A DNA stretch of 33,318 nucleotides, taken from the NCBI GenBank assembly GCA_002068935.1, contig MWBF01000007.1, positions 1-33,318 on the forward strand, in the 5' to 3' direction. Positions 5,744 to 28,243 of this stretch are shown here, piece by piece. Below the pieces are notes generated by a model, which was not told where the DNA came from, did no database searches, and saw only the letters and a list, made by a program, of their open reading frames with translations. The first letter of the stretch is position 1, and each line of letters starts with the position of its first letter. The DNA is from Chloroflexi bacterium ADurb.Bin325 (lineage in GTDB: Bacteria > Chloroflexota > Anaerolineae > CG2-30-64-16). The translations under genes and the position numbers were made by a program.

Positions 5744-5837
5744 CTTGGAATTTATCCAAGAATTGCTCTGGCCTGCCTCACCCCCCAGCCCCCTCTCCTG
5801 ACGTGCGAACCGAAAGTTCGCCGATCAGGAGAGGGGG
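5744..5837. repeat. Intergenic repeat with two nested-type hairpins
   Basis: A small hairpin CTTGGA/TCCAAG (5744-5749 with 5755-5760) is followed by a strong one: 13 perfect pairs between 5789-5801 and 5825-5837, with an inner GCGAAC/GTTCGC stem (5805-5810 with 5816-5821). The stretch from about 5753 to 5774 nearly repeats 25747-25769 (see findings). The element fills most of the gap between the URO-D-like gene and the upstream Gfo/Idh gene. Confidence 0.7.
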
Positions 5838-5876
5838 AGTCGAGGGGAGGCGGGCGCTCAATAGTTTAGGCCGTTG

Positions 5877-20973: not shown

Positions 20974-21014
20974 CCCCTGCCCTGACCGGTCTCCGACCGG
21001 GCCAGGGCAGGGGG
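20974..21014. repeat. Large intergenic hairpin with GGTCTCCGACC core
   Basis: CCCCTGCCCTG plus CCGGTC (20974-20991) pairs with GACCGG plus CAGGGCAGGGG (20995-21014) around a TCC loop, with small bulges. It is the longest uninterrupted hairpin of its group, about 17 pairs. Leftward it is followed by TTAATTT, so it could also terminate or attenuate transcription after the small membrane protein gene. Confidence 0.65.
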
Positions 21015-24647: not shown

Positions 24648-25640
24648 TTACCCCGCTCGCTCGAATCTGATTCTCGGGTCCACGATCATCAGCAGCATGT
24701 CCGAGACGAAGGTGCCGATGATGGTGAGCAGGCCGAGGAATAGCACCAGGGTGCCGGCCAGATACATGTCCTGGCTGCTCAGGGCGAAGTAGAGCAGGGG
24801 CCCTACCGTTGGCAGCGAAAGGACGATTTCGACGATAGTGCCGCCGGAGACCAGGGCGGGCAGGATCCAGCCGACGGTGCTGATGACGGGGTTCAACGCG
24901 ACGCGCACCGGATATTTGAACAGGACCTTCTGTTTCGGCAGGCCCTTCGTGCGCGCGGTGATGACATATTGCTTGCGCAGCTCGTCCAGCAGCGTGCCGC
25001 GCACGACGCGGATCAGCCCGGCGGTCTGGCCGAAGGCGATGATGACGATCGGCACGATCATATGTTTGAGCAGATCGATGACCTTCGCCTGGCTCCACGG
25101 CTCCATCGCATACTTTTGCGAGAAGAGGCCCCCTACGCTGAGGCCGAAGACCTGGTTGAAGAAGACCATGACGACGAGCGCCAGCAGGAAGCCGGGCGTT
25201 GCCAGCCCGATAAATCCTAATGTGGTGAAGGCGTAGTCCCCCACCGAATACTGGTGCGTCGCCGAATAGATGCCGATGGCGATCGCGATGATGTAGGTGA
25301 ATCCCAAAGAAAAAATGTTGAGGAGCATCGTCAGATAAAGCCGGTCGCCGATGATCTCCACCACGGGCCGCTTCCATTGGAGCGAGGTCCCGAAGCGCCC
25401 CTGGAACATGCCCGTGAACCAGCGGAGGAATTGCACGTACATGGGTTGGTCGAGCCCGTATTGCCGCTTAAGAGAGGCGATCTCCGATGCATCGACCTTC
25501 TTGCCGCTTTGTTCCAGGCTATGGATGTATTGCGTGAGATAATCCCCAGGCGGCAGTTGGATGATGATAAAGGTCGTGACGCATAGCAGGAAGAGCAGCA
25601 CGATCATGTACAGAAAACGTCTTACGATGTATGCGAACAT
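24648..25640 (-). CDS. oppB: Oligopeptide-type ABC importer permease (OppB/DppB)
   Basis: A 330-residue permease beginning MFAYIVRRFLYMIVLLF, the usual OppB first span. FIIIQLPPGDYLTQY follows, then five more spans and the EAA loop YVITARTKGLPKQKVLFKYP. It forms the pore with OppC. The ribosome-binding site is weak (GGGGGCGTC just before the ATG). It is separated from the solute-binding gene by a 210-base gap that holds a complex repeat element, unlike the 3- to 12-base gaps downstream. The binding protein may thus be expressed more strongly than the membrane parts, as is usual for such importers. Confidence 0.95.
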   Translation of the reverse strand: MFAYIVRRFLYMIVLLFLLCVTTFIIIQLPPGDYLTQYIHSLEQSGKKVDASEIASLKRQYGLDQPMYVQFLRWFTGMFQGRFGTSLQWKRPVVEIIGDRLYLTMLLNIFSLGFTYIIAIAIGIYSATHQYSVGDYAFTTLGFIGLATPGFLLALVVMVFFNQVFGLSVGGLFSQKYAMEPWSQAKVIDLLKHMIVPIVIIAFGQTAGLIRVVRGTLLDELRKQYVITARTKGLPKQKVLFKYPVRVALNPVISTVGWILPALVSGGTIVEIVLSLPTVGPLLYFALSSQDMYLAGTLVLFLGLLTIIGTFVSDMLLMIVDPRIRFERAG

Positions 25641-25658
25641 GACGCCCCCAATGGAGGG

Positions 25659-25687
25659 GTGCCGGGCAGCTTTTCGCCGCCCGGCAC
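25659..25687. repeat. Intergenic hairpin near oppB start
   Basis: GTGCCGGGC (25659-25667) is perfectly complementary to GCCCGGCAC (25679-25687) across an 11-base loop containing TTTT. Together with the element at 25706-25837 it fills the gap between the binding-protein gene and oppB. Confidence 0.55.
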
Positions 25688-25705
25688 GCGGTCAACGGAG
25701 TATCT

Positions 25706-25837
25706 ATCTGAGGGGCCGTTTGAAAGGTTCCTCGGCGATTCAGAACCTATCCGAGAATTGCTCTGGCCGGTCTCCGACCGTGCCCTCCGGCCGCGCCGGA
25801 GGCTGTCAGGGCAGGTTTCTCGGATGGCCCCTCAGAT
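25706..25837. repeat. 132-bp intergenic element with 12-bp terminal inverted repeats
   Basis: The ends ATCTGAGGGGCC (25706-25717) and GGCCCCTCAGAT (25826-25837) are perfectly complementary. Inside them ATCCGAGAA (25749-25757) pairs with TTCTCGGAT (25817-25825). Further in are the CGGTC-TCC-GACCG hairpin (25768-25780) and CCTCCGGC-CGC-GCCGGAGG (25784-25802). No coding potential is seen. It resembles a non-autonomous mobile repeat (MITE/REP type) or a processed operon spacer. No target-site duplication is obvious. Confidence 0.6.
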
Positions 25838-25850
25838 CGAATACTCGCGT

Positions 25851-28013
25851 CTACTTCCAGTAGAACTGTTCTGCCAGCTCCATCGCGGAGATGCTGTAGT
25901 AGCCGCGCTCTCCGGCGATGGCGACGTTGCCCAGATTCTTATCATATACGAACGGAATCGGGGTGTCCGCAACCGTGCCGATGACCCACACGTTGTCGGC
26001 ATGGAGCTGGAAGATCTCGTTGCCGACCCGCAGCCGCTCCTCGTCCGAGGTGGCCGCGCGGATCTGCTTGTAGAGGTCGAACAGCTTGAGGACGGCCGGG
26101 TCCGCGGGCTCCTCGCCGGTCTGGCCGTCGGAGTTCTGCCAGCTCCACCAGGGGCTGGTCATGAGGAAGCCGCCGACGAAGACCTGGTCCGCGGGCGAGA
26201 GGCCGTTGGCCCACCAGATCGTGCCGTGGTTGTCGGATGCGCCCTGCATCTCCCAGTAGAGCTGGCCGCTGACCTGCTTGACCTGCGTATCGACGCCGAT
26301 CACCTTCCAGAATTCGCGAACCAGCTCGCCGCCGGGCGTAGCAGGCGGGGTCACGTCGTAGTAGTCGATGGGCAGGATCAGCCGCGAGCCGTCTTCGTAC
26401 ATGCGGAACTCATGGCTGGCGTCCCACTTGAGGCCCATCTCGTCGAGGAGCGCGTTGGCCTTGTCCACGTCAAACTGAGCGTAGGCGTCGCGGAACTCGT
26501 CCTTATACCAGGGGCTGCCCGAAACCGGCGCAAAGGCGCTGGGCGTGCCGAAGTCCAGGAAGATGGACTTCTTGACTTCCTCGCGGTCGATGGCCAGCGA
26601 CAGCGCCTGGCGGAACCGCACGTCGTTGAGGGCCTTCTTCAGGTTCTCGTCCTTCGGCAGCATGTTGAAGGGGAAGATCAACATCTGATCCTGCCAGGCG
26701 GGCAGGGCCATCAGGTCGTAGCCGGCCTTGTCCGCGTTCTCCGCAAACATGGGGTAGTCGGAGAGGCGGGTGAACTGGCACTGGAGATCGGTCTCGCCGG
26801 AGATGATCTTCAGGTTTTCGGCCTGCAGGTCCGCGACCAGGCTGCGGGAGAGGGTGTCGATGTAAGGCAACTGGTTGCCCATCGGATCGACCTTGTAGAA
26901 GTACGGGTTGCGCTCCATGAGCAGGTCGCCCTGCTGCGGCTCGCTCTTCCAGACGTAGGGCTGGAGCACCGGCGCATCACGGTACTCCTTGATGCGGCCA
27001 AAGTACTCGCCGTTGGTCCAGGAGGTGTCGATGCTCAGATACCAGCGGGCCCAGTCTTCGCTCGTCAGCCCCGCCTTCTCGATGGCCGGGACGAGTTCCT
27101 CGAGGCCGGTGTAGGCGGTGTGGAACTGCTTCAGATAGTGCGCCGGCCGGACCATCTGCGGCCAGGACCAGCCCACCATCTGCGGCAGGAAGAAGCCGTA
27201 AGGCTCGCCGAAGGTCAGCGCGACCTTCCGATCATCCAGGACCTCGAACTTGGTGGGCTTGCCGCCCCAGTTGAGCCACTGCGGGACCACGGGGGTGAGC
27301 TCCGTGTTCAGGAGGACATCCTCGATGGTGTAGCGGATGTCTTCGCTGGTCACCGGCTCGCCGTCCGACCACCTCAAGCCCTCGCGCAGGGTGAAGGTGA
27401 ACTTGGTGGCGTCGTCGCTGACCGTCCAGGCCTCGAAGACGCCGGGCATGATCTTGCCGCCCATCCACTTGTAGATCGCGAGACCCTTCTCGGGGACCAG
27501 CTCCAGCAGGTGGACGTCGTTGAGGTGGCGCAGGTAGTGGTCGTAGTCGATGGTGTACTCGACCCAGTGAAGGTCGCCACCGTACTTGCCGATGTCCATC
27601 AGCGGGATGGAGACGACCGGATTCTTGGGCAGGCGCTCCTCGACGGGCGGGAGCTTGCCGGCTGCGACCTGTTCGGCCAACATCGGGGCTTCGCTATATT
27701 GCGCGATGGGGCCATACTCCGCCACGAAATCGGCCAGGTTGAAGTCACGGCCGGAGTTTGGGTCGTTGACGAAGGCGCCAGGGGCGAGGAAATCGCTGGC
27801 AGGGGCGGCTGCCGGCGCTTCAGCCGCGGGCGCTTCGGCTGCCGGCGCTTCGGCTGCCGGCGCTTCGGCGGCGGGCGCTTCGGCGGCGGGCGCTTCGGCG
27901 GCGGGCGCGGCCGGCTCGGCGGGGGCCGGGGCCGGAGCTGCTCCGCCGGAGCAGCCGCTGAGCAGGAAGACCGGGATCAGCAGGAGCAGGAACAGCAGAT
28001 ACAGACGTTTCAC
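25851..28013 (-). CDS. Family-5 ABC solute-binding lipoprotein
   Basis: A 720-residue extracytoplasmic binding protein. I start it at GTG 28013 because AAAGGAGGTCCTC lies just upstream and the product then begins with a proper signal: KRLYLLFLLLLIPVFLLSGC, with lipobox Cys21. A Pro-Ala-Glu repeat linker (about 37-66) follows. The family-5 fold (OppA/DppA-like) is recognised by FTFTLREGLRWSDGEPVTSEDIRYTIEDV and FRQALSLAIDREEV. At about 650 mature residues it is long, like family-5 proteins that bind oligosaccharides or large ligands. It is the first gene of the importer operon, with its own promoter (28244-28272). Ligand identity is inferred only from the neighbouring glycosidases. Confidence 0.93.
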   Translation of the reverse strand: MKRLYLLFLLLLIPVFLLSGCSGGAAPAPAPAEPAAPAAEAPAAEAPAAEAPAAEAPAAEAPAAEAPAAAPASDFLAPGAFVNDPNSGRDFNLADFVAEYGPIAQYSEAPMLAEQVAAGKLPPVEERLPKNPVVSIPLMDIGKYGGDLHWVEYTIDYDHYLRHLNDVHLLELVPEKGLAIYKWMGGKIMPGVFEAWTVSDDATKFTFTLREGLRWSDGEPVTSEDIRYTIEDVLLNTELTPVVPQWLNWGGKPTKFEVLDDRKVALTFGEPYGFFLPQMVGWSWPQMVRPAHYLKQFHTAYTGLEELVPAIEKAGLTSEDWARWYLSIDTSWTNGEYFGRIKEYRDAPVLQPYVWKSEPQQGDLLMERNPYFYKVDPMGNQLPYIDTLSRSLVADLQAENLKIISGETDLQCQFTRLSDYPMFAENADKAGYDLMALPAWQDQMLIFPFNMLPKDENLKKALNDVRFRQALSLAIDREEVKKSIFLDFGTPSAFAPVSGSPWYKDEFRDAYAQFDVDKANALLDEMGLKWDASHEFRMYEDGSRLILPIDYYDVTPPATPGGELVREFWKVIGVDTQVKQVSGQLYWEMQGASDNHGTIWWANGLSPADQVFVGGFLMTSPWWSWQNSDGQTGEEPADPAVLKLFDLYKQIRAATSDEERLRVGNEIFQLHADNVWVIGTVADTPIPFVYDKNLGNVAIAGERGYYSISAMELAEQFYWK
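27816..27905. repeat. 15-bp tandem repeat, six units, coding
   Basis: Six head-to-tail copies of CGCTTCGG(C/A)-type 15-mers (27816-27905), units 4-6 identical, encode the Pro-Ala-Ala-Glu-Ala linker of the binding lipoprotein. Because the unit is a multiple of three, copy-number changes would only lengthen or shorten the tether. Confidence 0.85.
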
Positions 28014-28243
28014 GAGGACCTCCTTTGGAAAAGAAACAGAGACGATGTTTCGTGTTCGCGAATGGGGTGATGCGTGAGTTCGGGTTTGTGCTATGACACC
28101 TCCTGAAAGCCAACGCTGGGCGTTTCTTTGCGAGCCAGGGGCGGGCGCCGCCAGAGAGGCTCCGGCAAAACATAGGAATGTCCGCCGGAGCGCGAGTGCA
28201 GGCACGCGTAGATGAAGGGTTATGCGTAACAGGAACGTGCCTT
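28014..28243 (-). promoter_or_regulatory. Long 5' leader of the importer operon
   Basis: Between the predicted transcription start (near 28237) and the GTG start is a leader of about 220 bases with no gene. It contains a hairpin CTCCGGC/GCCGGAG (28160-28166 with 28184-28190), with inner ACAT/ATGT pairing. On the minus strand there is also a strong Shine-Dalgarno-like AGGAGG about 85-90 bases before the real start that is not followed by a usable start codon. No known riboswitch class is recognised. Confidence 0.45.

Follow-up and report, generated by a model that had tools for sequence, protein, structure and literature searches.

Within the window, the 33,318-nt stretch of Chloroflexi bacterium ADurb.Bin325 DNA (contig MWBF01000007.1) that we analyzed, a gene for an extracellular solute-binding protein of family 5 (25851..28025, minus strand; Pfam PF00496, 191.9 bits) lies next to a gene for an ABC permease (24648..25640, minus strand; Pfam PF00528 and PF19300). 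The binding-protein gene ends in a TAG stop codon at 25851-25853 on the minus strand, as read from the ORF; its start was our choice, and the listed ORF extends to 28205. The permease gene is the first past a gap of 210 bp (25641-25850). By the ORF coordinates, no other spacing among the ABC genes at the locus is as wide, the rest being 3 bp, 12 bp and one overlap, in agreement with the original prediction of one wide gap in a tightly packed operon.

The inverted repeats that had been predicted for this gap are all present. The outermost is a perfect 12-bp pair with a left arm, ATCTGAGGGGCC, at 25706..25717 and a right arm, GGCCCCTCAGAT, at 25826..25837 (both plus strand), which the repeat tool scores as 15 nt at 93%. 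Nested within it are a second, perfect 9-bp pair (25749-25757/25817-25825) and two internal hairpins, one perfect with 8-bp arms (25784-25791/25795-25802), the other imperfect (89%) with 9-bp arms (25722-25730/25743-25751). The outer pair is above chance: when the 210-bp gap was dinucleotide-shuffled 300 times, a perfect inverted pair of at least 12 bp, with arms at least 50 bp apart, never arose; the longest perfect pair in the shuffled gaps averaged 7.0 bp, with a maximum of 11. Folding of the gap transcript predicts a free energy of -120.6 kcal/mol (z -8.0). Inverted-repeat search and folding also revealed a separate hairpin, GTGCCGGGCGGC/GCTGCCCGGCAC, at 25659..25687 on the minus strand, upstream of the permease start and without a U-run, which we refer to as the native hairpin. 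No tandem repeat was found at the gap, and a search of 25600-25900 for an intrinsic terminator, defined as a hairpin followed by a T run, gave none, so that this reading was dropped. The single match from an Rfam search of the gap, to PtaRNA1 on the native hairpin, was dismissed at 18.7 bits, below the threshold of 47.

Searching the host genome (a draft of 3.96 Mb in 582 contigs) with the element returned at least 49 matches, with 40 of 341 candidates scored. Besides the window itself, most of these span only query positions ~37-86, which correspond to the left half of an inner unit. A motif from this left half occurs 225 times on the two strands of the host genome with three or fewer mismatches, as compared to zero for the backward control; hence, the absence of other copies, which the original prediction had named as grounds for giving up the idea of a mobile repeat, did not apply. 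From the search loci and 38 fetched regions we assembled 60 complete copies with their flanks, a subset of the 225 places, setting aside 31 left-half matches that lack a right end (overlapping loci being counted more than once). The 53 copies of equal length gave an 88-bp consensus, to which copies are 85-100% identical (median 97%) and which is predicted to fold as one long hairpin (-57.6 kcal/mol). In the aligned copies, the terminal inverted repeat TATCCGAAAA marks either end of the consensus; beyond each lie five variable bases, and between the repeats two hairpin units face each other. The repeat thus has the features of a MITE: it is short and non-coding, with 88-89 bp and a single length in 53 of 60 complete copies, and it has terminal inverted repeats, a target-site duplication and many dispersed copies.

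Several other arrangements of related sequence were noted along the way. A second MITE core type, CTCACCCCC...CCTCTCCTGACGTGCGAGCC..., with the same kind of ends, is found at L061, L066, L069, L074, L077 and other host loci. Between two ORFs of the window, at 5745-5870, lies a degenerate relative that combines a MITE-like left end, GAATTTATCCAAGAATTGCTCTGGCC, with an interior of this second core type, CCTCACCCCCCAGCCCCCTCTCCTGACGTGCG.... At L017/L018 (G000:C40:15776-15951), half a MITE sits within a 128-bp direct repeat alongside other sequence.

The copy between the transporter genes is an 89-bp unit, GAACCTATCCGAGAA ... TTTCTCGGATGGCCCC, at 25743..25831 (plus strand), with the terminal inverted repeats ATCCGAGAA/TTCTCGGAT. 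It is flanked by the direct repeat TCA at 25740..25742 and 25832..25834, the left and right target-site duplications, as in other copies. Its ends, its left half (mostly 90-96% identical to the listed copies over 40-49 bases) and its first hairpin unit, GCTCTGGCCGGTCTCCGACCGTGCC (25760..25784, plus strand), are retained; the centre and right half are private and match the consensus poorly. Inverted-repeat search and alignment to the consensus place a second hairpin, CCTCCGGC/GCCGGAGG, at 25784..25802 (plus strand), in a centre private to this copy, where other copies have the facing second unit. Membership in the family is therefore a matter of the left half, the ends and the TCA/TCA flanks, as far as the alignments go. 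The 132-bp limits that had been predicted do not hold: the TCA-flanked repeat unit is 25743-25831, the left outer arm lies outside it, and the right outer arm covers the right end of the MITE, the TCA duplication and 3 bp beyond. Taken together, we consider it very probable that 25743-25831 is an old copy of a non-autonomous, IS5-type MITE inserted between transporter genes.

The flanks of the complete copies bear out a 3-bp target duplication. Identical 3-bp flanks were found in 37 of 60 copies (TAA in 15, TTA in 15, TCA in 3 and four others once each), so that TAA, TTA or TCA make up 33 of the 37 identical pairs; in the remaining 23 copies the flanks are not identical. When flanks were randomly re-paired, the mean number of identical pairs was 12.5 and the maximum in 10,000 trials was 24, versus the 37 observed. 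The insertion at locus L009 provides a paralogous empty-site case, for another copy and not for that in the window: here the MITE lies inside a repeat of a second type, with TGA on both sides of the element, and three other second-type repeats (L004, L045 and L068) have a single TGA, with TAA at the insertion site in a further one (L072). For the window copy itself, the comparison available is with four distant orthologous operons that lack the element, which belong to another family and do not represent a strict empty site.

An element with ends of the same kind was found together with its transposase in a genome of the same family as the host. A search for DUF4096 covered 41 genomes, 13 of which gave a match, and 27 new loci were fetched. 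One of these, L263 in genome G006, holds an element of 944 bp that has GAACCTATCCGAAAACTC and GAACCTATCCGAAAACTG as its ends and is bordered by TTA on either side; its protein, with DUF4096 and DDE_Tnp_1 domains, scores 201.8 bits with the NCBIfam model transpos_IS5_3 (NF033580; cut-off 110). Its end agrees with the MITE end in its GAACC form at 15 of 15 bases, and at 14 of 15 with both the majority consensus (GAATC...) and the window copy; the MITE and an autonomous IS5-family element therefore have their ends in common. With three or fewer mismatches, facing pairs of such ends also bracket the DUF4096 genes of L261, L262, L273 and L259/L269, of which the last two cover a single element. A lone end is present in L270 and in L274/L277, which show the same end twice, and the remaining 18 of the 27 loci are without any at this threshold.

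The host assembly itself yielded no autonomous partner, which in a draft of 582 contigs is weak evidence of absence. No intact DUF4096 gene (PF13340) was detected there, the two matches being a stop-containing fragment (48.3 bits) and a weak match (21.9 bits), and a PF01609 search of the host genome found one other DDE gene, at C267, which we take to be of the IS1182 type. None of these three loci has a MITE-type end within three mismatches, and the DDE gene was rejected as a partner since matching ends are absent. The mobilizing transposase now seems to have been lost from, or to be missing in, the host assembly. Because the host yields only a fragment, a weak match and a DDE gene without such ends, it is by inference that we propose mobilization of the MITE in trans, by an IS5-family transposase that works on GAACCTATCCGAAAA-like ends. 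The window copy would then have inserted at a TCA between the stop codon of the binding-protein gene and the native hairpin, duplicating the TCA, at a site beside or inside the end of a repeat of the second type. One of the two readings in the original prediction, a non-autonomous mobile repeat, is in this way supported: the copies are dispersed, the target is duplicated, one copy has a paralogous empty site, and an insertion sequence has ends of the same kind.

The left outer arm calls for a separate account. Most of it is held by a second-type repeat end at 25709..25739 (plus strand; GGGGCCGTTTGAAAGGTTCCTCGGCGAT from 25712), which is similar to CTGAGAGNCTGTTTAAAAAGTYYCCCGGCGACTGA from a different repeat of the genome and is not part of the TCA-flanked MITE copy. 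It is conceivable, but in our view unlikely, that the whole of 25706-25837 is one chimeric mobile unit, with a second-type left end and a first-type right end, that inserted as such. The outer arms are indeed perfect over 12 bp, with a private GGGGCC in common, and in L069 a second-type left end and a first-type right end enclose a different core. However, this outer unit would be flanked by TGA and TCA, with no direct repeat, whereas the inner unit has TCA on both sides; moreover, in L009 the distance from CTGAG to the first-type element within its second-type repeat is likewise 35 bases, although the orientation is the other one. With the inner unit taken as the MITE, the perfect pairing of the outer arms may reflect kinship of the two repeat ends together with the TNA target.

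A different view of the same gap, also contained in the original prediction, is that of a built-in mRNA device. The folded element would protect the 3' end of the binding-protein mRNA and allow more binding protein than permease to be made, as has been described for E. coli malEFG. For malE and other ABC binding-protein genes, such protection by hairpins is described in passages of PMC5927463. The very stable predicted fold of the gap (z -8.0) and its lack of an intrinsic-terminator pattern are what such a device should look like, and a run of at least 12 paired bases was predicted in 28 of 28 gaps from relatives (32 loci tried, four without a binding-protein gene in reach); yet this survey folded binding-protein gaps alone, and their z-scores spread from -1.1 to -8.5. 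A motif match in one gap (L118) proved on reading to be an unrelated hairpin. A further comparison is with orthologous operons. In a search of 396 genomes of the class, host included, at an E-value of 1e-140, four orthologues passed, all in one genus of another family, with permeases 72-73% identical and binding proteins 65-66% identical over the part within the fetched loci. Their gaps measure 77-86 bp and lack the MITE core, and each has one strong hairpin at the place where the window has the native hairpin, 25659-25687. Hence the four closest orthologues that the search gave have a hairpin but not the element, and the window has a hairpin of the same kind in addition to the MITE. Furthermore, the left half of the element occurs at 225 places in the genome, and its core was seen, at two or fewer mismatches, in none of five other host permease loci with a binding protein upstream. 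The sixth of the six other permease loci, on contig C17, was dropped as a parallel, its upstream gene having many CXXCH motifs and resembling a multihaem cytochrome. As an observation in its own right, this locus (L318, G000:C17:9500-14500) carries two MITE copies, one upstream of the CXXCH-rich gene and one placed precisely on its TGA stop, with TGA and TAA as flanks; next come a hairpin and then the ABC permease gene.

The role of the mRNA device is thus improbable for the repeat itself, the feature common to the orthologous operons being a separate hairpin. Because the orthologous gaps without the MITE still hold a hairpin, the protective reading attaches to the native hairpin at 25659-25687, which it fits better. 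The MITE copy would today be a transcribed, non-coding hairpin spacer of little effect; at best it would reinforce the protection that the native hairpin may provide for the 3' end of the binding-protein mRNA.

That the repeat is a REP element and owes its mobility to a Y1 (RAYT) transposase is highly improbable. The core unit is indeed short, palindromic with an unpaired base, high in copy number and often arranged in inverted or tandem pairs; however, the copies read begin with GCTC or GCTG and have no 5' GTAG beside the hairpin, and the MITE copies have 3-bp duplications and IS5-type ends. Of 30 Y1_Tnp loci fetched (21 genomes searched, 15 with matches), one, L224, shows a diverged unit at a distance of ~0.9 kb from the transposase gene, whereas the other 29 have none at four or fewer mismatches, save for a poor match in L246. 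At the Y1_Tnp gene of the host (L233), the flanking palindrome is of another, GTAG type. With one diverged copy near one gene and no clear Y1_Tnp linkage, the REP/RAYT reading was rejected. The repeated GTAG-type palindromes around the host gene, GTAGTGGGCGCTTCAGCGCC ... GGCGCTAAAGCGCCTACTAC (G000:C174:6567-6782 and flanks), probably form, with that gene, a separate REP system; GTAG repeats have been reported from Chloroflexi (PMC3733652).

The TNA-type target of the MITE may have a bearing on where its copies lie relative to genes. In 11 of 31 copies with identical, stop-type flanks and enough sequence, the duplication falls exactly at the stop codon of an open frame of at least 150 codons. 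A matched background, in which 14.1% of TAA and 6.5% of TGA are at such stops, gives an expectation of 4.1 (28 copies of the TAA kind and 3 of the TGA kind; P ~0.0015, copies treated as independent); these open frames are not proven genes, and the background was drawn from the same, partly overlapping loci. The counts at thresholds of 100, 200 and 300 codons are 12/32, 10/30 and 9/29, respectively. The same excess might also arise if insertions within genes are selected against. The copy in the window does not count as a stop-codon case. A 108-codon frame ends at its TCA, out of frame with the binding-protein gene, and is counted in the 100-codon row (12/32) but not in the 150-codon row (11/31), on which we rely here.

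The hairpin unit within the MITE extends well beyond the host. With two or fewer mismatches, its core GCTCTGGCCGGTCTCYGACC occurs 457 times in the host genome and 19 to 243 times in each of seven of nine other genomes of the family, and a single time in each of 4 of 50 other members of the class, no more than the backward control gives. An exact 21-base form is present in 22 of 396 class genomes, host included. Among the named stretches listed, 74 of 76 have Chloroflexota-type titles, the others being titled Pirellulaceae and Arcobacter. In 38 of the 76, a pair of exact copies lies within 100 bp on the same strand; the spacers vary from one genome read to another. Tandem arrays of the unit, again with genome-differing spacers, were seen in the Chloroflexota-titled records L145, L147, L148, L161, L166, L183, L192 and L214. 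Elsewhere in the window, at 2458-2488 and 20974-21014, are two hairpins, probably intergenic, with a GGCCGGTCTCCGACC-type core and no MITE ends.

Literature searches on REP and MITE elements in Chloroflexi and Anaerolineae returned no description of the hairpin unit GCTCTGGCCGGTCTCYGACCGAGCC, and text searches found its motif letters in no paper. A possible, if still speculative, scenario is that GCTCTGGCCGGTCTCYGACCGAGCC represents an undescribed repeat superfamily of Anaerolineae-type Chloroflexota that spreads on its own, as single units and as tandem arrays whose spacers are genome-specific, and was here captured between IS5 ends. These TNA-favouring ends would often land on stop codons, where the duplication restores the stop, such that hairpins are loaded onto the 3' ends of genes while the genes stay unbroken. 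Should the preference for stop codons and the broad distribution of the unit be confirmed, they would provide a testable case of small elements colonizing gene 3' ends in Chloroflexota. At the present locus, what appeared to be a regulatory device of an operon is better viewed as a dispersed mobile element, set apart from the hairpin that is common to the orthologous operons.

Three known systems invite comparison with this locus. REP/BIME elements with their RAYT transposases are, like the MITE described here, short inverted or tandem hairpins in hundreds of copies, some of them between operon genes; unlike them, the MITE lacks GTAG and a clear Y1_Tnp link and has terminal inverted repeats and a target duplication. 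IS5-family insertion sequences (NF033580; DUF4096 and DDE_Tnp_1) and the MITEs derived from them have ends of the same kind, GAACCTATCCGAAAA, and IS5-derived MITEs likewise are non-coding and present in many copies, with a 3-bp, mostly TNA duplication. The present MITE differs from these relatives in its interior, where two hairpin units face each other, an arrangement absent from the single insertion sequence read through (L263), and from IS5 systems in that the search of the host assembly gave no intact autonomous partner. Finally, the protective hairpin in the malE-malF intercistronic region resembles the window in being a U-run-free hairpin between binding-protein and permease genes, but here, judging from sequence, that role would fit the native hairpin at 25659-25687 better than the mobile copy.
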